Assembly (NCBI GenBank): GCA_023053545.1
Contig: JAKZAN010000005.1
Span: 5,022,001 to 5,086,000 of the forward strand
Source of the DNA: Lepidurus packardi
Lineage: Eukaryota > Arthropoda > Branchiopoda > Notostraca > Triopsidae
DNA length: 64,000 nt
Direction: 5' to 3'
Shown here one piece after another: positions 1 through 61,000 of this stretch (position 1 is the first letter of the stretch; the number at the start of each line of letters is the position of its first letter). The notes beneath the pieces are model-generated. The model was not told the DNA's origin, did not search any database, and was given only the letters and a program-made list of their open reading frames with translations. A program made the position numbers and the translations under genes.

Positions 1-164
1 GTAATGGCTCAAGGGCTCTAAGAAGATGGGAGATTCAATTCTGGATGAATTCTACCCGGTGATGACAAGCAGTTCAACATCACCGACAGCAAAATTCACC
101 GACAATTAAAAACTCGGCAACTCGTCGAACTTAAACGTCCTAGAAGAAGAGCCAGTATTTGACC

Positions 165-229
165 GGACGAGTGTGGGATCTAGTCATGATACTTTTAAGT
201 AATTCACATGTACCAGATTCCCACTCGCC
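165..229. repeat. short imperfect inverted repeat, copy A
   Basis: The left end GGACGAGTGTGGGATCTAGT and the reverse complement of the right end (ggcgagtgggaatctggtac) match imperfectly, so the unit could fold into a hairpin. A second diverged copy lies at 1499-1557 with the same two ends (ggacgagtgttggatctagtca and cccactcgcc). Two copies with conserved ends but a diverged middle suggest a small repeated element. No target duplication was recognised. Confidence 0.45.
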
Positions 230-1498
230 CATCAAATCCCAGCCTTAAAATAACTTGGAATTCGTAGAAATAGTTGGCGTAACTACTTCCGAAAAATGAA
301 CCTCTCCGTTCGGAGAATGTCACTGGAATGGTACACATCAACCATATTTTTGAACGCAGCTAAACTATCGACAGTTCCACTACCTCCCCACAGCCGAACG
401 AGGTCACAACCCCTTTTCACCCGCAACCAAGCCCCAAGGGCTGCGTAAACCTTTCACATGTGAACCATTCCCTACAAATTCCGCAGAACAGTTTACTCAA
501 AAGGCGGGGGCGAACCTTACCCAGTGATGTTAAGAACAGGCTCCATCCACTAAGGTAGGGTTCTCCCCGCCTGTGAATAACTAACCTCTTTGACCTTACT
601 CCATACTGCCCTGCGGGTGACCCAGTAAAAGCTACCAACCCCCCTCTCCCAACCCCTCTGACCCTGGTTTCACCAGATTCCCCGAATAGGAAAGGGAACA
701 AACTACAAAAACATTTTCATAAAATTCGAAACAACAAAACATACCGGATTTCATATTCAAGTCAACATACCAAAGTAGTAGTCAAAACCAACCCCATTTT
801 CACCATAACCAAGACGATTACAAGTTACGACATTGGCCAAGATGAAAGCGGGGTCGAGAATAAACATTTAAACACTAATTAAACATAATAGAGACAGGAG
901 ATAAAGGAAACAAAATAACAAAACAGAAAGCAACATTACAGAAAATAACAAATTATACCTACGCTAGCAATTGCATTGGCGGCTGAATCCCGTGGTGCTA
1001 TGCATAATTAACCAATCCCAGCATCCCATCCACTGGATCCAGCGCCAAAAAAAATGCTCCATTCTGCTTTGAAATGGGAAGAGTACAAAAAAGGAAATCG
1101 CTATTAATTCGAGAAAAAAGCGACAAACTTGGCTTTAATTAGAGTTGAAGACTGAAGGAATGTAACGTCTAGGTAACTACGGCTGTGATACGGAAGGCTC
1201 CACATACCACAGCGGTAGTTCCTTGGCGAACAAGCCTTTTTCAAAAACAACAACTTGCTCGATCAAAGTTCGGCGAGTAACTGACATCTTGACTTTTTCG
1301 CACAATTCCAGAACACTTGAGAGTAACGCCGGAGATCGAACGGTACACTTTGCCTTGCTGATCTAGCTTTATGAGTCGGACACAGTCATACAGCTAGACC
1401 ACCAAAGAAAAATATACACTCGCACGCGAAACTGCCCAAACCCGATTTTTTTAAGATAACTAGCACTTCACGGATAGTCGCTCAGGTACACCATCGTT

Positions 1499-1557
1499 GG
1501 ACGAGTGTTGGATCTAGTCACGGAAACTATTGCACGTGGACTAAAAACCCACTCGCC
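1499..1557. repeat. short imperfect inverted repeat, copy B
   Basis: This is the second copy of the unit at 165-229, in the same orientation. The outer 20 or so bases are conserved and the middle is diverged. Confidence 0.45.
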
Positions 1558-2680
1558 AGCGACCGCGAACACAGTTGGCCGTCAACAAGGCTTTGCTCTT
1601 TTCCACCAGGAATGAAATGCCGAACAGAACCTCCAGACACCGAGCTCTGGTTCCAGTAAAACAGACGACCTGAAAGACTTCCTAAATCGAAGAGTTACAC
1701 AAACCCCTGTGCTTCTTTTTCGCTCGAACACGACACCAACTTGGCTGGACTTGCCAGTTTTCTGTTATACCTCATCGCCAAGCTAAACCGATTCATAAAA
1801 TAACGACAGAAAATTGTTGGGTGTAACTATACTATCAAGCTTAACAAGTAATGTAGGTAAAAAAAAGTGGAGAAAATAGATCAGCTTGGGAATGTGGGAA
1901 CAAACTGGCGGGGGGAGTTTGGTTCGAATAGCTGTTCTTGTTGACTTCAAGAGTAGATATGAACTTGACTGTCTCGCAAAAAGCTGTCAACTGACGTGGC
2001 TATGATGCAAACCGGGTCCTTTTTTGTAGCTTTGTTGGTCTCTATAAATGGACCCTAGCCTAGAGGTCTTCGCTCCATTTTTCTTGGTCCCGGGTCACCT
2101 TGCATACCACGTTTCGAATGCATAAAGATTGACCTATGCTGACCCTATCACGTGAATGGAAAGGTCAACACCCCCCAATACCTTTCCCTTTTATCTTCCT
2201 TAGAGGATATATTCTGTGGGGGAAAGGGGTAAAAAGGTCAAAGAGCTCAAAACTCCATTTCCTGTCCGTTTTGGGACGCCTTTTGTTCCGTTTCACATGC
2301 TCTTCAAAGCTCCCGAGAAGCTGAGAACTAGTGGATAAATGACCCTTTACCAAGCAAGCTGACCTTAGGTCAATGTCCGGAGCTCGTCCTAGAACTTTTC
2401 CCAGGGCTCTAGACAAAAGGTGAAGGTGCCCTTTACTTTCTGGTCAACTTGGTGTACCTAGAGGTATTTCCTGTGTCCAAGTTCCTACGGAGGATAAAAT
2501 GGAACAAAAGGATTTCTTTCTTTTTTTGAAACTACTTTTCGAAGTTTTCGCAACCAGATCAGGGTTTCTAAACACTTAGTAACATTGCACAAACTTTTAA
2601 GCTCTTAATTACCCTGCAACTTCTGCAGCAGACAGCTTTTCCAACTCCTGGGAATCAAAAATACTCTTTTGGGAGTACAT

Positions 2681-3619: not shown

Positions 3620-6600
3620 TTAGTCCAACATCTTCCTCACCATATAATTCAAAATACCACCGTGCTTGAAGTAAGTCAGCTCCACGTCGGTATCGAAACG
3701 TAGCAAAACTTCGAAACTACGCCCATCATCCATCTAAAACAATTGCAGAAATATATCAATAATATCCTACATATAGAAAAGCCAAATCGACATCACCTGT
3801 ACACGTAAAGCCTGTCCTGGGGTCACATCGTCTGGAATGATGATGCTGAACGCCTCGGTGCCTCTTAAGCCCAAATTGTCTGCATCTTGGCCAGGCAAGA
3901 ACTGCAAAGGTACAATTCCCATGCCCACCAGATTGGAGCGATGAATTCGCTCAAAAGATTCCGCAATAACCGCTTTAATGCCCTGAAATTAAAATACACC
4001 GCGAAAGTCATTAATCGTTCAATCTTGTTTCCCGAAAAGACTTAAGCTTCAAAATCGGGCGCTTTACCAAAAGGAAAGGTCCCTTAGCAGCCCAGTCCCT
4101 AGAAGAACCACACCCATATTCCTTGCCGGCAATTACGATCAACGGCGTATTATCCGCCTGATACAGGGCGGCGGCGTCGAAGATGTCCAGCTCTTGCCCA
4201 CTTGGGAAATGGACAGTGCGAGGACCAGCTTTGGCTACCAAGCGATTTACCAAACGGATATTGGCGAACGTCCCACGTACCATCACCGCATCGTTGCCTC
4301 GACGTGATCCATACGAGTTAAAATCCCGTGGTGTCAATCTAAGTAACGAAAATTGATCTTAGTAAAATTTCACGGACCTGCCTTATCCTATCCTTAAAAA
4401 TAAATAAATAAGAAAGGGTGGAGCTAAAAAAAAAAAAAAAAAACTAGATTCCATCAGTGCGCGCTCGGACTAATGAAAGCGGATGCAGGCGCGCACTTGC
4501 AGGATAGGCAAGAGAAATCGAGAACAGACATTTACCCTCTTTCCGTCAAGTATCGAGCAGCCGGGCTGTTCCGAGCGATGGATCCGGCAGGCGAGATATG
4601 ATCCGTGGTGACCGAGTCACCCAAGTAGAGCAAAATGCGCGCGTTTTTTACCGAACGCATGCCAGGGGGTTCTTTAGGCATGCCTACAAAGAAGGGTGGA
4701 CGCTTGATGTACGTCGAAGTGGTGTCCCAAGGATACCGCTGGCTCTCTGGAGCCTGCAAAGCGTTCCACGGACCACTGCCTTTAGCCAATTGAGAGTAAA
4801 CGTGCTGGAACATGGATGGGACGACTGTTGTGCGTTCAACTTCCTGAATCTCGCTGCGTGAAGGGTAAATATCTCTCAAAAACACTCCCTCACCCTGCTT
4901 GTTATAACCTAGAAAACAGTATCGATTCCAACGACATGAAATAACCAATTTTTCGATATTACCAATTGGCTCAGTCTCGAAGTCAATATCAACGGTACCA
5001 GCAATGGCGTAAGCCACAACCAACAACGGCGACGCCAAGTAGTTTGCGCGAGTGTGAGGATGAATCCTGCCTTCGAAGTTACGGTTTCCAGACAAAACGC
5101 CACAGCAAACTAGTTCTCCCTAAGAAAAGACAAGCTGAGTCGAAACCCCAATAAAATATTCGAAACAAATAAAAAAAAAAGATAACTAATCGACATTGTA
5201 TTATCACTTTCTAGACGCTTTATTTCTTTTTAAATTTTCGTTAATGTTATTATTGCTAATTATTATTAATGTTATTATTGTTAATTGTTATTATTTTTCT
5301 CACTTGATCAATGGCTCCGGCTATTTCTTCTGGTAAAGGTCCACTGTTGCCAATACAAGTCATGCAACCATAGCCTACGATATTAAATCCCAATTGTTCC
5401 AATGCAGGGATAACGCCGGAAGCCTCCAAATAGTAGGTTACCACCCCCGATCCCGGTGACAAAGAGGTTTTAATGTAAGGTTCGACCGATAAACCAGCTT
5501 CTACAGCCTTCTTAGCCAATAAGCCTAAAAAGAATGTCAACAAATAATTTTTAACGAATCAAAAAGTCTATCAAAAAGGAATTAATGTTTACCTGCTCCG
5601 AGCATGACGGACGGATTACTAGTATTGGTGCAGGAAGTAATAGCAGCGATGACAACAGATCCATGCTTCAGCTTGTATTGTTTGTTCTCGTAAACAAAGG
5701 GAACTTCCATTGACAGTTTTTCAGGAGGGATTCCAAAACCTTTGAAGCCAACCTGAATATTTGAGACAAAAAGCGGAATCAAACATGAATAGAAGTGCTC
5801 TAAATATTCAACATAAATTGTAAAAAATGTTTGCGTTATTCACTTTGTTGGTTAGACAAGCCCGGAAATCGACTTGCATATCCGAGACTGCAACTCGGTC
5901 ATGGGGACGTTTGGGTCCGGATAGGGATGGGACGACGGTTCCTAAATCCAGCTCGACCACTTCGCTGAAAACCGGATCTTCTGCTGCGTCGTCGTAATGA
6001 CGAAACATTGACACAGCTTTCAGGTAAGCTTCAATGTAAGCTATCTTCTCAGGAGATCGATCTAACAAACGCGAGAATTGATTTATCCGTTTTAAAGAAA
6101 TAAAAGTAATATGTACTGGTTTGAACCAAGTATTCAATGCTTTTGGCGTCAACCGGGAAGAAGCCAACAGTGGCTCCGTATTCGGGGCACATATTGCTGA
6201 TCGTAGCGCGATCAGCGATAGAAAGTGCAGCCACGCCAGGGCCAAAGAACTCTACAAATTTGCCCACCACGCCAACTTGTCGCAAATGCTAAGGACAAAA
6301 AAAGGTAAGGTAAAATTAATACGAAATACTCGACAGAATTTTTTATTTTACTTTGGTAATCGTGAGGACCACATCGGTGGACGTCGAAAAGGAATTCAAG
6401 GAGCCCGTGATTTTATAGCCCACCACTGGGGGCAGCACCATGGAAATCGCTTGACCTAGCATTACAGCTTCAGCTTCTATCCCGCCCACTCCCCAGCCCA
6501 AGACTCCTAGCCCGTTTATCATCGTCGTGTGCGAGTCCGTCCCGACTACCGAATCTGGGTATAATAACGAATCCTTTCCTTCACAAAAAACCACTCGCGC

Positions 6601-8671
6601 CAGATACTCCAAATTGACTTGGTGAACAATGCCCATACCAGGCGGTACAATGAGCATATTATGCAATGCTTTGGCGCCCCACTGTCATATAGAAACACAA
6701 TGAAATTAGCATTCTTCTTTAACAGCTATAAGATTTTTCGAAAATGTTTAATTTTTTTTCAAAATTAAAAAAAAAAAATTCTCGAAAAATCTTAACACAT
6801 CTTCCAAAATCTTGAAATTTCGAAAAATGTGAAAAGTTTTGAAACTCTGTTTTTTGTAAAATGGAAATTTCGGAAAATTGTACAAAAATTTTGAAATTTA
6901 AAAAATAGTTACTTTTAAGAACACGAATCGCTCCTTATTGCGCTCAAACTCCAAATCCTGGTTCTTGGTCAAGGCATCCGCCCTACGAAATAAAATACAC
7001 AACCCATCACCCTTAACATTCAAATTTTTTTATAAATATAATATCAAGTAAACTGAACCGCAAAAAAAATCTTCAAAAAAAAGTTCAAGCCGACACCCAT
7101 CTCATTCCCGGAATTTCCTTTCCCAATCAGAATAAAAAGGATCTTAAAATCAAGCCCAAGACACTGACCACGCAGATTTGAGCTTATGGAAGGGACACGT
7201 CAAGTCCGTGATAGGTCCTGCTCCGAATTCCAAGTTCTTTATGGTCTCTATCGTCCGTTCTTGGCTTTGTTTGGCCGGATCGTTGTGCTGGAGACATGGC
7301 AAGGCGGTGACATCGGCAGCTTCTAAAATACACGTGACTCCATCGCACTGGCCTTTGCAGGACGGGTAATCCTTACTTAAGGCCGTTCTTCGCCCTCGTA
7401 ACACGCTGCCCCGCCCTCTGGAGAAAACCAACGTCCCTCGCTTGGGTGTAGGTGAGACCGAGGTTTTACTCGATGCAGTTTGGAGTTGCTGAAAGACCGG
7501 GAGGCGACTTGTAGAGGAAAGAGCGGTGTCTTCTAAATCCAATATGGGCGGGGCGGAGGGTCCTGGGCCTGTGTCCCATGGGGAGATTCCGGCTGGACTT
7601 CTGTGGAGGTGGGTTGAGAGAGGCGTGTGATACGATATGCCAGTAGCAGGTAGCAAAAAGGGAGGCGTTAGCAAAGGGAGAAACAAACCCAGGAACACCA
7701 AAATGGCATTTCCCCCAAAATCGAGCCAAACGTGCGAATACGCTCGCTAAATACATGTTAAATCACCTCGTTTGTAGAAGTGACGTGCCCAGGCATAAGC
7801 ATTTTTGTAAAAACAAGTATACAAAACCGAAGGTTAAGAATCTAGCGTAGGCTCGGGATAGCGGAACGAAAGGGGGAAAAACAAACAAACCTTAAGGGCT
7901 ATATAGCGTTATTATGTTACCTTCGGAAGACGTCGACTTGGACAGAATGGTCAATTACCAAGTCCGCAGGGCAAATGGGATTAATGCGCTCAGGATCACC
8001 GTTTAATTCCTCTACTGCGTCTCTCATCGCAGCGAAGTCTACCACTGCAGGCACTCCCGTGAAATCCTACAGAAAGTTGCACACTTTTAGCGGATTTTAT
8101 GAGTTTAAGGAAATTAAACCTGGAGGATGACACGGGCTGGCTTGAAAGCCACTTCCACGTCTCTACCTTCCGCTTGGATCGTTTCCCATGCGAGAATATT
8201 CTGTACATCCTGAGAAGTCACGTGAAAATTGTCGCAATTGCGGACCGCCGACTCCAGAAGAATCCGAATCGAATAAGGGAGCTTGGAGAACTTTGCTTCA
8301 TCCAAGCCAGCAAGGTGAAAATAGTTGAAGGTCTGGCCCTCGACGCTGAGAGATTTCTTGAGGTTCTCATATGGATTCGTGAGGTCTGTTGTTCAAAAAT
8401 AAATAAAAATACTAAATGCAAAGATATAAGATGATTTTCATCTCGCTTGTAAAAGTACTAATACGAAAAAACGTCAGTTCGGCTGTACCCTGAAACGCAT
8501 GTGTGTATTATGTTACATATTCAAGACTTGGACTTTGATTTTTCATTGGGTTTGACATATGACGATGACGTTGGGCAAGGCAAGGGAAAGATTAACCACG
8601 CATATTTCCGTAGTTGTAATGAATTTTGGAATACACATTTTATGACCAGCCTACTTACCATCGACTGCCAT
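3620..8671 (-). CDS. ACO1: cytosolic aconitase / iron regulatory protein 1
   Basis: Interconverts citrate and isocitrate with a 4Fe-4S cluster; family members that lose the cluster bind iron-responsive elements. Coding exons, in transcription order: 8671-8659, 8385-8120, 8066-7921, 6982-6913, 6681-6352, 6288-6117, 6061-5844, 5752-5593, 5524-5304, 5119-4963, 4908-4536, 4338-4068, 3982-3797, 3733-3620. Together they give 898 aa with phase kept at every junction (human IRP1: 889). The three cluster cysteines are present (SCTNTSNPS and GCMTCIGN), as are the active-site segments SGNRNFEGR and [10 protein letters not shown], so it should be enzymatically competent. The start is a 13-nt coding exon (MAVD). 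A further cassette exon at 7169-7600 fits the same phase (separate entry). The 4909-4962 intron is only 54 nt and stop-free in frame. Divergent from the taperin-like gene. Confidence 0.95.
7169..7600 (-). CDS. candidate cassette exon of the aconitase gene, IRP2-like cysteine insertion
   Basis: A 432-nt (144-codon) open stretch inside the intron between the exons ending VQVDVFR and starting ADALTKNQ. On the minus strand it has a long pyrimidine tract ending cctccacag at its 5' side and a TGCGTG|GTCAGT donor. Entry and exit phases are both 2, so including or skipping it keeps frame. It is Pro/Ser-rich at first, then cysteine-bearing: [11 protein letters not shown], a further ALPC, and LTCPFHKLK. 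Vertebrate IRP2 differs from IRP1 by a roughly 73-aa insertion at this very site, with a CxGxCD segment and an ILCPFH segment. Homology is inferred from position and these motifs; use of the exon needs transcript evidence. Confidence 0.7.
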
Positions 8672-17816: not shown

Positions 17817-18208
17817 CGTTGTTGTTGTTGCTTATTTACAGATATGGACCCAAGCATGTACACATTTGCGGAGAATAGAAAGAACCAAACCGTGATCCCC
17901 ATTAGTTTATAAAATGTACCTTTCGAGGCCTCGTTTGCTGGAATATTTTGGACATAACTTATATAAATGTAGAAAATGAAGTTTAAGTCAATGTATCTGT
18001 AATCTTGAATTTTAATTAGGTTTAGATTTATTTCAAATAATTCTACAGATCTCTGAATGAGAATATAATTTCGTTTCGCCATTCAGTATTAGTTCAGCTT
18101 ATGTCCGTAACGTTTAAGCGAGTAAACAAAACACGTGTGAGATAACCTACTCATCAAATTAAACAGGTAAATTGCAAGTTACCACACTAGCTTCAACGTT
18201 AATAAACA
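17817..18208. promoter_or_regulatory. divergent MED22 / PITRM1 intergenic region
   Basis: 392 nt separate the start codons of two divergently transcribed housekeeping-type genes, so the region must contain both promoters or a shared bidirectional one. It includes a GTTGTTGTTGTT run in the MED22 5' UTR. No specific factor sites are claimed. Confidence 0.55.
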
Positions 18209-21200
18209 ATGCAGCTACTACGGTTGCAAGTCTTGAAGTATGGGAACAAAGTCATTCCCAAATGGCCGTTGTTTTCCGTCGCCACAAATCAAGCCAGAAA
18301 CAGCTTAGCAATGGCTACTCTTCACCAGCGAGACTACAATACACCGACAACGTCGATAAAGCCCTATACATTAAGCAGTAGCATCAAACTAGGCGCAATC
18401 TTAAACAACTTTCAAGTGAAATCCATTGAACAAGTTCCTGATCTTTATTTAACCGCAATTAAACTAGAACACATGGGCACAGGTTCGGATTATCTACACA
18501 TTGCCCGCGAAGATCCCAACAATGTCTTTTGCGTGGGCTTCCGGACCACGCCCATGGATTCTACCGGCGTTTCTCACATTCTCGAACACACTACTCTTTG
18601 CGGAAGCGAAAAATACCCTTGTCGAGATCCCTTCTTCAAAATGTTGAATCGCTCTCTGTCCACCTTCATGAATGCCATGACGGGTCCCGACTACACCATT
18701 TACCCTTTCGCTAGCCAAAACTTGAAAGATTTCTACAACCTGATGGCCGTTTACCTCGATGCAGTCCTCTACCCTCGTTTACGCGAGCTGGATTTTCTCC
18801 AAGAAGGCTGGCGATTAGAACACCAAGACCCTTTAGATCCTAAAACTCCTCTCGTTTTCAAGGGAGTGGTCTTCAACGAAATGAAAGGTGCCTTTTCAGA
18901 TTCTCAGCAGATCTTGGGGCAAAAATTGCTAAACTTACTGCTTCCTAGTCACACCTACGGTCACGTTTCAGGCGGAGAGCCTTTGAAGATCTTAGATTTA
19001 ACATGGGATCAGCTTAAGAATTTCCACGCGAAGCATTACCATCCGAGCAATGCGCGATTCTTCACTTACGGCAATTTTCCTTTGGAAAAGCACCTTGAAT
19101 TCATCGATTCTTACGTTAGTAAATTCACTAAAATTTCACCTTCAGAAGAAGTCCCATTAGAACCTCGTTGGAGCATTCCGAAGAGAGGCGAAATTTACTG
19201 CCGAACGGATCCCTTTGCCCCAGATCCAACAAAGCAAACGACAGCCGTGGTCACCTTTGCCCTAACGGATATTCGCGACAGCTATGACACGTTTATAGCT
19301 CAGATTTTATCGGAATTGCTACTGTCAGGTCCCAGTGCTCCGTTTTACCCAACGTTACTCGAACCCAATATTGGCATGGGTCTAAGCCCCGTTTCGGGCT
19401 TCGACGCCCATACTCGAGACACGACTTTCTCCGTAGGCTTGCAAGGAATCCGCGACGACGACATTTCAAAAGTATTCGGGCTAATTGAGGATACTTTCCG
19501 TGACGTTGTCGCCACTGGTTTCGATTCCGAGCGAATTGAAGGCATTTTGCACTCCGTGGAACTCAACGTCCGCCATCAGTCTGCCAATTTCGGATTGAAT
19601 TTAGCGATGGGCATGACCCCGTTATGGAACCACAACGGCGATCCTGTTAAAGCCTTGGAAATCCAAGCGAAGGTGGCGCAATTCCGCCGGGATCAAGCTA
19701 GCGACCCTCAATTTTTAACGAAATTGGTCCAGAAATACTTTATTGATAATAATCACAAACTTTCACTGGTTATGCGCCCTAAGGAGGACTACGAGGAATT
19801 TGAGAAGAGTAAAGAGGCGACAATCTTGTCTGAAAAAATAGCGAAGCTTACCACCGAGGACCGCAAACAGATTTATGAGAAAGGATTGAAATTAAAAGAA
19901 CTGCAAAGTACTTCAGAAGACGTTTCCTGTCTCCCGACTTTGCAAATCTCCGATATTCCTGCCCAACTAGAAAAGGTCGTTTTGCAACACCAGAATATAA
20001 ACAAAATCCCTCTTCAGTTGTGTCTTCAACCCACTAATGGAATTACCTATTTTCGGTCGGTTCTGAACACGCAGCACGTACCTCAAAATCTGAAACCATT
20101 TTTACCCCTATTTTGCGCTGTTTTGACCAAAATGGGGGCAGGGCAACTAGACTATAAACAGTTTGACAAACGTGTCGAACTGAAAACAGGTGGACTAGGC
20201 GTGGGTTTACACATCAGGGACGACAAATCCTCGTTGCGTAAATATGAAGAAGGCATAGTCATTTCTTCGTACGCTTTGGACCACAATCTCCCAGAAATGT
20301 TCGATTTATGGTCAAAGATCTTCAATGAGCTAGACTTAAGCGATGAGGGGAGATTTGAAACCTTGGTTCGCCATCTAGTGGGAGATATGATTAACGGAAT
20401 CACGCATATTGGGCATCAGTTCGCCATGTCACTAGCTGCATCCGTTTTAACCCCCGCGGCTCAATTTAAGGAACAGTTAGAAGGCTTAACATTTGTCAAA
20501 CAGCTTAGAGATCTCACCGAAACTGGAAAGTTTCCAGTCATCTTGGAGAATTTAAGGCAAATATCTAAATACGTACTCCGACCACAGAATGTTAGAGCGG
20601 CTTTAAACATGGGCCCCGCTTCTTCCGACGAAGCCACTAAAGCTTTAGAATCATTTTTGCAGTCGCTTCAAGTTAGCGTCAAATCTTCTGATCAACCATT
20701 GAATGAGAATTCGGGTTTTGAAGCATCTAGTTGCAAAATCCATCATGTGTTGCCGGTACCAATCAATTTCACGTCAAGAACATACCAAACTGTTCCGTTC
20801 CAATCATCAGATTTCGCACCTTTACGAGTCTTAGCACGTTTAATGTCGGCCAAGTACCTCCATCCCGAAATTCGCGAGAAAGGTGGAGCTTACGGAGGCG
20901 GAGCCAACGCTTCTGCCAGTGGCATCTTTTCGTTTTATTCGTATCGCGATCCTCGTTCGTTAGCGACATTGGATTCCTTTTCTGGAGCCGTTGATTGGGC
21001 TCTAGAAGCTAATTACGACGAAGAATCTATCAAAGAAGCCAAATTGAGCATATTTCAAAAGATTGATGCCCCCACGCCACCTGGTAGCAAAGGCTTGACG
21101 TATTTCTTGAATAACATTACTGAAGAAGAATTGAATGCACACCGAGATCATGTTAAGCAGGTTACGAAAGAACATTTAGTTCGAGTAACTTCCACGTACT

Positions 21201-21286
21201 TACGTAGCGCAAAAACTACCGGAAACGTCATTTTAGGGCCTGCTAATGCAGATATAGCTAACGATAAATCCTGGAGGATACAATAG
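18209..21286 (+). CDS. PITRM1: presequence protease, mitochondrial (M16C metallopeptidase)
   Basis: A 1025-aa protein (human PITRM1: 1037) that degrades cleaved targeting presequences and other short peptides in the mitochondrial matrix. The first 40 or so residues are basic with few acidic residues, as expected for a matrix-targeting signal, which supports the first ATG. The inverted zinc motif HxxEH is HILEH at residues 123-127, with the distal glutamate in FNEMKGAFSD near residue 224. The C-terminal half retains the paired inactive M16 domains and the Arg/Tyr segment REKGGAYGGGA that completes the active site. The whole frame is one uninterrupted exon, while its neighbours carry up to 27 exons. 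All motifs are intact, so it is not a decayed retrocopy. Confidence 0.95.
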   Translation: MQLLRLQVLKYGNKVIPKWPLFSVATNQARNSLAMATLHQRDYNTPTTSIKPYTLSSSIKLGAILNNFQVKSIEQVPDLYLTAIKLEHMGTGSDYLHIAREDPNNVFCVGFRTTPMDSTGVSHILEHTTLCGSEKYPCRDPFFKMLNRSLSTFMNAMTGPDYTIYPFASQNLKDFYNLMAVYLDAVLYPRLRELDFLQEGWRLEHQDPLDPKTPLVFKGVVFNEMKGAFSDSQQILGQKLLNLLLPSHTYGHVSGGEPLKILDLTWDQLKNFHAKHYHPSNARFFTYGNFPLEKHLEFIDSYVSKFTKISPSEEVPLEPRWSIPKRGEIYCRTDPFAPDPTKQTTAVVTFALTDIRDSYDTFIAQILSELLLSGPSAPFYPTLLEPNIGMGLSPVSGFDAHTRDTTFSVGLQGIRDDDISKVFGLIEDTFRDVVATGFDSERIEGILHSVELNVRHQSANFGLNLAMGMTPLWNHNGDPVKALEIQAKVAQFRRDQASDPQFLTKLVQKYFIDNNHKLSLVMRPKEDYEEFEKSKEATILSEKIAKLTTEDRKQIYEKGLKLKELQSTSEDVSCLPTLQISDIPAQLEKVVLQHQNINKIPLQLCLQPTNGITYFRSVLNTQHVPQNLKPFLPLFCAVLTKMGAGQLDYKQFDKRVELKTGGLGVGLHIRDDKSSLRKYEEGIVISSYALDHNLPEMFDLWSKIFNELDLSDEGRFETLVRHLVGDMINGITHIGHQFAMSLAASVLTPAAQFKEQLEGLTFVKQLRDLTETGKFPVILENLRQISKYVLRPQNVRAALNMGPASSDEATKALESFLQSLQVSVKSSDQPLNENSGFEASSCKIHHVLPVPINFTSRTYQTVPFQSSDFAPLRVLARLMSAKYLHPEIREKGGAYGGGANASASGIFSFYSYRDPRSLATLDSFSGAVDWALEANYDEESIKEAKLSIFQKIDAPTPPGSKGLTYFLNNITEEELNAHRDHVKQVTKEHLVRVTSTYLRSAKTTGNVILGPANADIANDKSWRIQ

Positions 21287-45400: not shown

Positions 45401-48400
45401 GTAGTATTGACGCCATAGAAGGGCTTGTTATAGGTTAATGCTCAACATCCACTCTCTACAAAGAAACCTAACATAATTAAAAAAAAAAAAATCTTTCAGA
45501 TCCTCTTTCTGGGCTAATGTACTGGACCGACGCTGGTCACCAAACAATGGAATGCGGCGATCCTATTGAGAAGACCCGAGCGGTTTTATCTGAGGAAATC
45601 CACCATCCAACGAGTCTTGTTGTCGCTTATCGCAAAGGGTAGATTATTTTGTAATAATAATTCTTGGGTGCAAGCTAACGAATCTTTGGGTTATAGGATT
45701 GCTTTTGTAGTCGAAAACGGGTTGGTAAGCCAGAAACATGGAATGTTGTTCCGTATTGTTCGCTTAAACTTGACGGATTCGACCGTTCGGGTTTTCGTGC
45801 CCTTTGTGAACGGCCCAGGTACCGTTCTCGCCTACGACCACGTGACTGACTACTTGTACTGGTCGGATCCTAATCATGGTACCATTGAGAGAGGAAAGTG
45901 GGATGAAAGCGACCATCAAATCGTCCGCGCTCACCTTGGGTACCCTAATTACCTTACCATCATGGGTCCTACTCTCTTCTGGGCGGAACGACTCCAAAGT
46001 ACTCACCTACAAGCGGTCAACACCGTAGGTTTACAACCTGAACGGCCGTTACATATTGGTAATACCTGGTTCTTTAATGTTATTTTTCTTGCTAGATATG
46101 ATATTGATAAAAGTTACATAAAACTGATTTTGATTCAGGGCCGCCTACTAACGAGGACATCCGACACCTGGTCGTACTTCATGTACCCGAGGTCAGAGAT
46201 CAAACCCATGCCTGTGATATTACAAACGGTGGCTGTGATCAAATCTGCCTTCCTACTGGCTCAGGACGCGTATTTATAACTATTCTTTTTTTAAAAAAAA
46301 AAACTTCTTGTAACGCTTTCATTGTTTTGAACTCTAGCGTTGTATCTGCGAGGTTGGGTTCGAGCTGGAGAATTCAACGCATTGCGTACGTAGGACTAGT
46401 TGCATGGAAAATGAATGGCAGTGCGGCAATAGCAATTGTATATCCAAAGGCAAAAGGTAATTTTGAATGCATATGCGTAGACTATTTATGACAGGTTTCA
46501 TAATATATAGTTATTCCTAATATTTTTTTTTTCGTTTTGGGGTATGTTTTCTTAATCTTTTGGGATACCTTCAGATTTTCTTATGTTTCCGTATTTTTTT
46601 TTATTTTAATCAGCGTGAGCAAAGCTCTTGGCCGACTTTTATTGCTAGCTCTCTAATTATTTTACATATCATTGAATATTTTTCATGTTTTCCTATTATT
46701 TTAACCAAGTTAAACTCATTTCGTAGATGTGATGGAATTATGGATTGCTTACCCAATGGAGATGATGAAATTCATTGCGTAACAACTACGCCGTTTATTC
46801 CTTGCGCCCTTTATCAATTCAGATGCCAAGATAATACCTGCATTAGAGACAAAGATGAATGCGACGGAGATCTGGATTGTCCCGATGGTTCCGATGAGCA
46901 TAGCGATTGTCCTGCCATCTTTTGTAATAAAGGTAATTCAATTGTTTAAAAAGCAAAAACTTAATTATTAGTGATATTTTAATTTTTATTATAGCAAGCG
47001 AAATTATTTGTCAAGATCACAAACGCTGCTATTTAAAGTCCCAAAAATGCGATGACGTCGAGAATTGTGCCGACGGATCGGATGAACAAAACTGCCCTCG
47101 TAAGTCAATAATAATTACTATTTCATGTATTTTAAGTTGTCCCAAGTATTATTTGCTCTTTTGTACCCTAATATTTGAGTGTCAGTGTTATTCTAATGAC
47201 TTTAATTTTTTTGGCATTTCGACTATTATTTTATACCGGTGTTATGTTTTTTCCTTTTTTAATCGTTATATTTTAGAAACCTGTACTTCTAGCGAGTACC
47301 ACTGCGAAGGGGAAGATACCGAATGTATCAACCTGGCGTGGGTTTGTGATGGCGTGGCGGATTGCCCAAAAGGGGACGATGAGAGCAACTGCAATATTAC
47401 CTCCCCATTGAAAGTATCGGTAGCATGCCCCGAAGGCCAATCCACTTGCAAAAATGGCTACTGTCTCCCTAGCTCGTATTTCTGCGACGGCGAAACAAAC
47501 TGTCCAGATAATTCCGATGAAGAATTTTGCGATAATAACACTCCTAGTTCTTCCAAACCCGCCCTTAGCATGGACTGTCCACCTGGTACCATCTCTTGCT
47601 TTCTAAGTACTGGCCAATGCATTTCTGCAAAAGCTAAATGCAACTGTGTGCAAGAATGCGAAGGCGGCGAAGACGAAATTCGCTGCCCAGCTTGCGAGAA
47701 CAGATACAGGTGTCATGAAGACGATTTGATCCTGATTCCACGCTCACAAGTCTGCGATGGGGAAAAGGATTGCCCCTCTGGATCGGACGAGAGTTTTTGC
47801 GGCCAAATGGGAGAAAATATTCCTGTAGAACCGGTTACGAACTTGACCCAATGCGGCGATAGTTACGCATGTAAATCTGGTGAATGTGTTGACTGGTCTT
47901 TGGTCTGCGACAAATATACACACTGTTCAGATACGACTGATGAAGATCTGCAATGCGGTATGTATTTATATACAATTCTCTTCAATTTTTTTTATCTAGA
48001 TCATTTTTAGGGACTGCTTGCTTAGATTCTTCGGTTTGTCTTAAACACGAAGTGTGTCAACCGACACCTTACGGTCCCGTTTGTTTTTGCAGTAGGGGGT
48101 ACCGGAAGGTTAACGGCCACTGTGAGGATATCGACGAATGTAGTGAGTCGCAACCATGCTCGCATGACTGCCTGAATGTAAAGGGCGGGTACAAGTGCTC
48201 ATGTGCGGCTGGCTTCACCCTTCATTTGGATAAGAAAAGCTGCAAGTTGGATGGTAAGGCCGCCAAAAAATAATTCTGAAAATATCGCCGTTTCTTTAGA
48301 ATTTCTGTGCAGACTTTTCTTAATTGTTTATGCTTCACTTAAGGTGACAAGCCCCTCCTTTTACTAGCGACTGCCCAAAACGTGCAGCTGTCAAGTATTG

Positions 48401-58000: not shown

Positions 58001-61000
58001 AGCATCTAACGCAAAATACGCGCCAGGTAAGTTGAAATTAGGGTTGCCTGACAGTACACTTGAGAAAAGCAATGAGATGTTTGCTAAAAATCGCTTCCCC
58101 CTTGTTTATGCATAAATCTTGAAGAGTGTTTGGATGGTCGCGTGCAAGCGTGTGTCCATGACGCTTTCTATCAGCGTCACCCATACTCGACTCCGTTATC
58201 CGGTACCGAGTTGGCCGCCTACATGAAGACTGGTTGTCGGGTGATCCGCGGAGCAGACTGGAAATGGGGTGACCAGGACGGTAACCCTTCCGGAGAAGGC
58301 CGCGTCATTAGCGATTTGGGAGAAGACGGGTGGATCCGGGTCCAGTGGGACAACGGATCGACCAACTCGTACCGTATGGGCAAAGAAGGAAAATACGACC
58401 TTCGTTTAGCAGACGCTTCTTCTCCTGGTCACGAGTCGGATTACACTGACAAGGAAGAAGGCGAGGAGTCTGATCTGCGTGAAAATACGTCCCACTTGAC
58501 GGAAAAAGCCATTTCGGTCAGTCTCTTGCACCAAAAAGCGTCTGAGCTAATGATGTCACTCTGGCTGCAAGCGGGTTTACAAGGTAGCGCCCTTACTTCC
58601 GAGACCCGAAATCTCCTTTCCGCCTGGTTACGCGAAGGTATCAGAGCCCATTATCTGGCGGATCCGCCTGAGGCTGGGATGGAATGGGCGACGCTGGGTC
58701 TTCTAAAGGCTCTTATGACCAAAGGCGCGTTTTACGTTGAACTGGCCTCGCCCGCATGGCTTAAACTCTGGGCGGCGTTACTGGATCATGGATCGCAGTA
58801 CTCTTTGACCCTACAGGTCCAGGTATTACAGCTACTCAAGCTCGTATTACCTCAAGCGGGAAGAGAAGTTGGGGATGACCAGCAACAGCTGCTCAATCAC
58901 CTCTGTTACCTGCTGCATAACGCAGTCTTAGGGTTAAAACCGGATCCAGCTATTGAAGTCTGTATGGAACGCTACATCACCAACCCGAGTTCGTTTCCTT
59001 GTCCGCCATTGCTACTATCCGCGTCCTACAACAGTACTTTAGCATCCGAAATTGTGGCGCTCTTTCGGGCGTTACACAAAGAACCTCACTGGAAGTTAAG
59101 AGTAACGAACCTCCTGCGATGCGCTTTGCAGAACCTAGGACTTTGTAAAGCCAAAGATTCCGTAGAAATCGTAGCAGGTTTGGCGGTTATGAGTCATTCG
59201 GACGTAGAAGTTCGACCGCATTTGGGAGGTTCGGTACGGATTCGACGTTTCGAGCACGAGACAGACCAAGACGCGCTGGGCATTGTCATGAAAATGGAGC
59301 ATCACGGTAAGGTTCGCGTCCTTATGCAGTCCAGTGGGTTAAGCTGCACCATTCCCGTGCGTAACGTCACCACGTTAAAGGAAACGCCATTCGATGTGAC
59401 AATTTTACCTAACGATGAATCGTTCCAACAGGGTCTCCAGAACCTACTCATGATCACCGGATTGGAAGATGTATGTAGAGCGCTACAGGCTACGAGCGAG
59501 GGTCCTGATTTCACAGTAGGTGTTCTACGAGGACAGCAGCTATTTTGGGCCAAGTTACAAGCGGCCAAAACCCTTCTAAAAGATTCCGCGTTACTCTGTC
59601 ATCTTCTAATGCAAAGTACCCCGGCTGTCCCTGATGAAATGGGATTGGAAGAGACTACCGAAGGCGGGAATGCTGACGGCAGCGAGTCCTTACAAGCTTT
59701 CAACCCTAGCGAACAACTCATTTCATCGATGCCAGTGCCGAGTCTAACAGTACCGCTGTTGGCGTTACCCAAGTCAAGATCGCTACCCGAATTAGGTGCC
59801 ACAAGAGTGACCGTGGCTCATCTGATGCCAAGTTGTTTACTCTTACATCGGATTCTACGTCGGGCAGCGGAACCTAGTCCCATAAAGTCTCATTTTACAA
59901 CTGAACAATTGGAAATTGCCGTGTTACTTTTAATGCAGCAATTATCCCACGAAGCAACTGTCAATAACCCCATCCAAGAGCGTAGAGAAGACCAACAGGA
60001 TGTTTCGGAGAGTGCGGCTTCTTCTTCAGAAGATCCGGCGTACCCTCTCCCTTGTAATGAACGTGCTGAAGTGGTGAATCGGCCTCAAAGAGACGAAGGA
60101 GCGTTAGGGTTTACATCCTCTCCGACTCCAGCCGTTAGGCAGGTTATAGAGATGGGTTTTCCGCGTTTGAGCGTCGAACGTGCCATGAAATGCTTAGGTA
60201 AGGCTTGAATCCAGCGTCTCTCTAAGGATCGGCTGATAATGGAGATACATTTGTAGGGGGTGGTGAGTTGGGTACTCCTAGTTTGGAAGTCCTGGTCAGT
60301 TGGCTGTTGGAGAACCCTGACCAAGTTTACTCAGACGAGGGTCCTAATACAGATTCCGAAAGTTCTACCGTGTCCGAGCCAGGCCAGGGCGAAGAGGAGC
60401 CGCTCCAAGCAGCGGCTTTACCGTCCAGTTTGGTGCCTTTTGCGACGGGATACCGGGAACGGCAATCTTTTGACAGTAGCGATGACTACGCGATTTACGT
60501 ACGCGACCGACTTCGGGTTGGAATGTGGGTCCGCTGCTGCCGAAGTTACGAAGAAGTTACAGAAGGGGACATGGGCTGTGTGGTCAAATTGGACCGCGAT
60601 GGTTTGCATGATTTGAATGTTCAAGTTGACTGGACGCGAAAAGGCGGTACTTACTGGATGCGCTACGTCCATCTAGAGTTGACGGGAGAACCATGCAACC
60701 GATCCGGTAAGTTATCTGCGGGACAAAAGGTCCGTGTGAGGAGTACTGTTACAACGCCAAAATACAAATGGGGATACGCTTCTCATCGCAGTATTGGAAC
60801 GGTCACAGGTAAGATATCTCACTTTTTTCCATGTGTTCATTGATTCGTGGATTGTTAGACGTCGTTAACAATGGGCTGGAAGTCGTCGTTCAGTTTCCTG
60901 AACAAGCCAATTGGACAGGTCTGGTTTCAGAAGTGGAAGTCGTTGGAGAGTCCTTGTCTGGGGAGGCAGACTCATTACCGGGGCTTTTAGGTCCTTCGGA

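Follow-up and report, generated by a model that had tools for sequence, protein, structure and literature searches.

A candidate exon resembling the IRP2-specific insert in an IRP1-type gene of the branchiopod Lepidurus packardi

Mammalian IRP2 is described as carrying an insert that is unique to it relative to IRP1 (PMC2854138). This segment was once proposed to be a sensor of iron or heme, with iron assigned to C168, C174 and C178 and heme to C168 or C201, and was later reported to be dispensable in cell culture (PMC2267205); it is reported to be unstructured and dispensable for iron-dependent degradation (PMC2854138, PMC2267205). Sponges are reported to have one IRP1 and to lack IRP2 (PMC7034838). 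Among the matches listed in a search of full-text literature, a scope that leaves subscription papers and the gene annotations of other invertebrates outside, none was recognised as describing an invertebrate IRP with an insert of the IRP2 type, and the novelty of such an insert is therefore provisional.

The window analysed here is a stretch of 64,000 nucleotides from a Lepidurus packardi contig (JAKZAN010000005.1). It contains a complete gene for IRP1/cytosolic aconitase, for which we built an exon model by hand (Table 1). The gene reads through in frame in two versions, giving 1042 amino acids when a 432-nt block is included and 899 when it is left out. Against PDB, the long form scores highest with IRP1 (2b3x, 1380 bits), cytoplasmic aconitase (3sn2, 1371 bits) and IRP2 (6vcd chain A, 1235 bits). 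The short form shares 608 of 885 aligned residues (68.7%) with human IRP1 and 531 of 865 (61.4%) with human IRP2. All three [4Fe-4S] cluster cysteines and all 12 active-site positions compared match IRP1. Since R536 and S778 are retained, where human IRP2 has K and N, the protein is not to be filed as IRP2. Ten of the 11 IRE contacts listed in PMC4184891 are identical; the exception is K379, where the protein shares the R of human IRP2. Judged by its cluster cysteines, active-site residues and IRE contacts, the gene is of the IRP1 type.

Table 1. Features of the window, with positions counted from its first nucleotide
Feature	Position	Strand	Remarks
IRP1/cytosolic-aconitase gene, coding span	3620-8671	minus	15-exon GT-AG model; leaving out the candidate exon gives 14
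Upstream exon	7921-8066	minus	ends ...VDVF(R), phase 2; GT-AG model
Stop-free block (432-nt version of candidate exon)	7169-7600	minus	phase 2/2
Candidate exon, preferred 249-nt version (83 residues)	7169-7417	minus	stronger in-phase acceptor
CKGQCD motif	7342-7359	minus	counterpart of human IRP2 C174-RGS-C178-D
CPFH motif	7186-7197	minus	counterpart of human IRP2 C201-P-F-H204 (heme-motif core)
Downstream exon	6913-6982	minus	begins (R/W)ADALTKNQ, phase 2; GT-AG model
mir-36	25-124	minus	below Rfam threshold
mir-279	152-242, 1486-1570	minus	just below Rfam threshold
mir-996	162-232	minus	above Rfam threshold
mir-998	966-1058	minus	below Rfam threshold
mir-2944	1153-1240	minus	just below Rfam threshold
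mir-9	1343-1417	minus	above Rfam threshold
Presequence-protease-like M16C peptidase	18206-21286	plus	single open frame
LDL-receptor class A protein	46937-48010	plus
MIB_HERC2-domain protein	58088-60208	plus

A cluster of microRNA hairpins lies downstream of the gene on the same strand (minus, window 25-1570). In the 3' flank of the gene, at 2675-2987, two 25-nt arms with 92% complementarity and 263 nt between them form an inverted repeat that has the look of a short, non-autonomous DNA transposon. When the whole assembly (108.6 Mb, 344 contigs) was searched for aconitases, at least four loci were found: the IRP gene, a mitochondrial-type locus at C4:3.226 Mb and two on small contigs. The large contigs yielded a single IRP gene, counts from this aconitase search being lower bounds. 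One of the two small-contig loci, on a contig of 96 kb (L001, G000:C107:576-5048), is IRP-like, lacks the insert and has four in-frame TAA/TAG codons, one of which faces a conserved Glu; it is probably a contaminant, perhaps from a protist with reassigned stops. Many COX1-like stretches with TGA codons, readable under the invertebrate mitochondrial code, are scattered over large contigs C1, C2, C4, C5, C6, C21 and C38, as expected for nuclear copies of mitochondrial DNA.

The original prediction placed in an intron of this gene a 432-nt block free of in-frame stops, with phase 2 on both sides and encoding CKGQCDG and LTCPFHKLK; all of this is borne out for 7600-7169, which lies between an AG and a GT. 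The block was also said to have good splice signals, and here the sequence disagrees. A leave-one-out weight matrix built on the 14 introns of this gene ranks both boundaries last: no acceptor scores below the one at 7600 (-1.0) and no donor below that at 7169 (0.5), two further donors (0.9 and 1.4) being almost as weak as the latter. In the same phase, position 7417 offers a stronger acceptor (7.6 as against -1.0 at 7600), which suggests an exon of 249 nt rather than 432 nt; its length of 83 residues is near the 73 of the human insert. We therefore prefer the 7417 acceptor and regard the longer version as probably extending too far at its 5' end, while both acceptors may be in use. The open frame itself runs from 7746 to 7150, beginning 48 codons upstream of 7600, so that it does not fix the 5' boundary. 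That the donor is weak and the phase symmetric hints at most at an optional exon, and the acceptor, if it is the one at 7417, no longer hints at optional splicing. Direct joining of the flanking exons, as in the 899-residue model, rebuilds a gap-free IRP1-like stretch of 11 residues.

Openness like that of the block, in the same frame, arose in 210 of 20,000 Markov sequences with the block's own composition and in 16 of 20,000 with the composition of the flanking intron. Frame scores are 0.444, 0.419 and 0.255 for 7417-7169 and 0.367, 0.277 and 0.310 for 7600-7418, and with a codon-frame contrast of 0.03 to 0.05 the exon falls below all 12 other scored exons (0.18 to 0.45); when codons 79-145 of the block are taken by themselves, the scores improve (0.500, 0.321, 0.243). 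Codon usage is not decisive, yet it weighs somewhat against a coding exon. The idea that the exon derives from a repeat or a transposon was considered and rejected: one copy of it was found in the assembly, and no Pfam family matches it up to an E value of 10. The encoded segment is probably flexible. Its single-sequence fold (mean pLDDT 37.2, pTM 0.17) is compatible with disorder yet uninformative.

As had been claimed, the block sits between VDVFR and ADALTKNQ, exactly at the site of the 73-residue human IRP2 insert (IDFSK / PETVLKNQ), within domain 1, flanked by the DHS-QVD and KNQ blocks, and IRP1 has no insert at the corresponding site (2b3x, 3sn2). With the letters of the human insert verified against 6vcd, the alignment pairs TDLTCPFH with T197PILC201PFH204 and CKGQCD with C174RGSC178D; the CPFH core is identical in the two, and its cysteine lies 10 residues from the end of the insert in both. 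Read by eye, human C174, C178 and C201 have counterparts, and C168 has none in place. LTCPFHK, also compared by eye, agrees with five of the seven positions of the HRM_r pattern given in PMC3904948 and so falls short of the full pattern. All of the IRP2-like sequence lies within 7417-7169, and the likeness, judged from these alignments, is one of motifs and is restricted to the C-terminal 64 or so residues. The predicted resemblance to IRP2 thus stands for the exact site and both motifs; it does not extend to the N-terminal part, which shows no similarity, and whole-insert statistics are modest.

Shuffling the 83-residue insert 1,000,000 times never gave both motifs together with CPxH placed as in the human insert; CPxH appeared at that offset 101 times and CxGxC[DE] appeared anywhere 2219 times. 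The pattern C[KR]GxCD occurs once, in the candidate exon, among 121,809 six-frame residues of the window, and CPFH twice, including the candidate exon, among 189,065 residues of the window and four loci. Since the motifs had been singled out beforehand by the original prediction, the chance figures for them are partly post hoc, a concern tempered by the earlier naming of C168, C174, C178 and C201 for IRP2 (PMC2267205). Global alignment to the human insert was matched by 14 of 20,000 and 38 of 50,000 shuffles for the 144-residue version and by 843 of 50,000 for the 83-residue version (943 of 50,000 when the human side was shuffled); local alignment was matched by 1685 of 20,000 shuffles and, for the 83-residue version, by 2509 of 50,000. 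With p about 0.0008 to 0.02, the whole-insert alignment is modest. Ungapped, the last 20 residues were equalled by 416 of 200,000 shuffles. The C-terminal 64 residues alone were equalled by none of 50,000, a figure that is flattered because the cut was placed at the shared motif, and the N-terminal part of the 144-residue block did no better than shuffles (26,095 of 50,000 as good). The window also supplied decoys, 79 stretches in one comparison and 303 shorter ones in another; all scored below the candidate, the best of the 303 coming close behind (-6 versus -4 for the candidate exon). A control alignment to the reversed human insert was equalled by 446 of 5000 shuffles in one comparison and by 633 of 5000 in the other, so the true orientation does better.

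Relatives of the exon were sought in several collections. A protein search had been proposed as a check on the kinship, and phmmer with the exon alone against PDB gave no match up to an E value of 10. The genome-contig collection contained 88 stretches fitting the pattern, none of which was confirmed as a relative, and none was found in the viral-contig collection. Wider queries found four loci in viral contigs and five in bacterial records. In five of these nine loci, the aconitases L037-L041 (L042-L045 were left out), the two flanking matches either overlap or are separated by no more than 12 nt, and no insert is therefore present; these aconitases are of bacterial type or, in the case of L041, eukaryote-like, and have little bearing on animals.

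The same genome encodes other parts of an IRP-based iron system. A tblastn search with human FBXL5 found a homologue at C1:11.591-11.593 Mb, with 144 bits over human residues 1-258, 48 over 288-374 and 75 over 589-691, and hemerythrin, F-box and LRR parts are all present; its C-terminal part preserves GCQNLxC-x4-CC. The Pfam hemerythrin model gave no match to FBXL5, the human protein query being the one that found it. A direct scan found IRE hairpins at three of four ferritin places (L033:3528, L033:6102 and L034:3554, plus strand), each with a CAGUGA loop, a bulged C and all five pairs of the upper stem; they share the strand of the ferritin match and precede it by 291 to 466 nt. The fourth place, L036, had none, and three further ferritin matches on small contigs lay outside the scan. 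Shuffles of L033 plus L034 contained on average 0.01 such hairpins. Folding energies relative to shuffles (z of -3.64, -1.07 and -1.18) differ widely, and the energy support is thus uneven. With the Rfam IRE model, nothing in the genome reached E 0.001, a search in which the controls matched nowhere either, and nothing in the four ferritin loci reached E 5. At position 8 the ferritin IRE bulge is C in Lepidurus, whereas arthropods are said to have G (PMC8466369).

The best reading of these observations, in our judgement, is that of an IRP2-like insert, well placed in an arthropod gene of the IRP1 type. This reading, together with a cassette use of the exon, is favored by the exact site, both motifs at the right offset, the whole-insert alignment of the 144-residue version (38 of 50,000 shuffles), the strong in-phase acceptor, the openness of both frames, a donor weaker than any other in the gene, the single exon copy, the single IRP gene on the large contigs, the IRP1-type active site, FBXL5 and the three IREs. 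It is weakened by the global and local figures for 83 residues (843 and 2509 of 50,000), the small codon-frame contrast, the missing C168 counterpart, the five of seven HRM_r positions and the reported dispensability of the mammalian insert (PMC2267205, PMC2854138). A more specific version, that a cassette exon (7417-7169, possibly 7600-7169) related to the IRP2 insert gives the gene two protein forms, we place only just short of an even chance. Alternatively, the exon could be IRP2-like and constitutive, every IRP molecule carrying the insert and the short form being absent. The insert is part of human IRP2 as solved, and the in-phase acceptor at 7417 is of ordinary strength; the gap-free IRP1-like skip junction, the retained aconitase residues and a donor that is the weakest of 14 argue weakly the other way, and we consider constitutive use unlikely, though a serious contender.

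A real exon might also be unrelated to the IRP2 insert, having arisen as a lineage-specific insertion in a tolerant surface loop, with motifs acquired by convergence or chance. The low whole-insert similarity (843 of 50,000 shuffles), the dissimilar N-terminal half, the lack of relatives in the genome-contig and viral-contig collections and the sponges with one IRP1 and no IRP2 (PMC7034838) would all fit, but two motifs in identical order, one at an identical offset from the junction, make this improbable to us. We give still less credence to the idea that there is no exon, the block being intron that happens to stay open between sequences resembling splice sites by chance: it would account for the two weakest sites of the 432-nt version, the frame still open past the proposed acceptor, the small codon-frame contrast and the equal openness of 210 of 20,000 composition-matched sequences, but it would make the motifs and the exact IRP2 position a coincidence and leaves the good acceptor at 7417 aside.

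If the exon is indeed an IRP2-like cassette, skipping it would yield an ordinary bifunctional IRP1, and including it would place a flexible Cys/CPFH segment in domain 1, producing an IRP2-like form that would work alongside FBXL5. Such a segment might respond to heme or oxidants and thereby alter stability and lifetime or IRE binding. One arthropod gene would then do what vertebrates split over two, and it would offer, in one gene and animal, a way to read the effect of the insert on aconitase activity, IRE binding and turnover. The insert could, moreover, be older than the vertebrate IRP1/IRP2 duplication, an optional exon by which the ancestral bilaterian IRP gene would have made both forms through splicing, vertebrates later fixing its inclusion in one paralog and its loss in the other; this we propose tentatively, rating it slightly less likely than the two-form gene itself. 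Optional use and deep ancestry are, for the present, attractive conjectures. If the exon is expressed and conserved, a supposed vertebrate speciality would become an old animal invention, and an arthropod counterpart would serve as an evolutionary test of the importance of the insert, marking as lasting residues C174, C178 and C201-P-F-H204.

Among known systems, the IRPs of the earthworm Eisenia and of sponges share with Lepidurus a single IRP1-type protein and an IRE system (PMC4184891, PMC7034838), and the excerpts of these papers available for the 890-residue Eisenia protein and the sponge IRP do not mention an insert. With IRP1/cytosolic aconitase (2b3x, 3sn2), which has no insert at the site of the candidate exon, the Lepidurus protein shares 68.7% identity over 885 residues, the cluster cysteines, the active site and the IRE contacts. 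Vertebrate IRP2 (IREB2, 6vcd chain A) differs in having K and N where the Lepidurus gene, of IRP1 type, keeps R536 and S778, and its insert has 73 residues rather than 83 or 144, with a C168 that lacks a counterpart in Lepidurus and little similarity in the stretch between the motifs. It shares with the Lepidurus segment the insertion site, a phase-compatible length, C-[KR]-G-x-C-D, C-P-F-H and the spacing from CPFH to KNQ.
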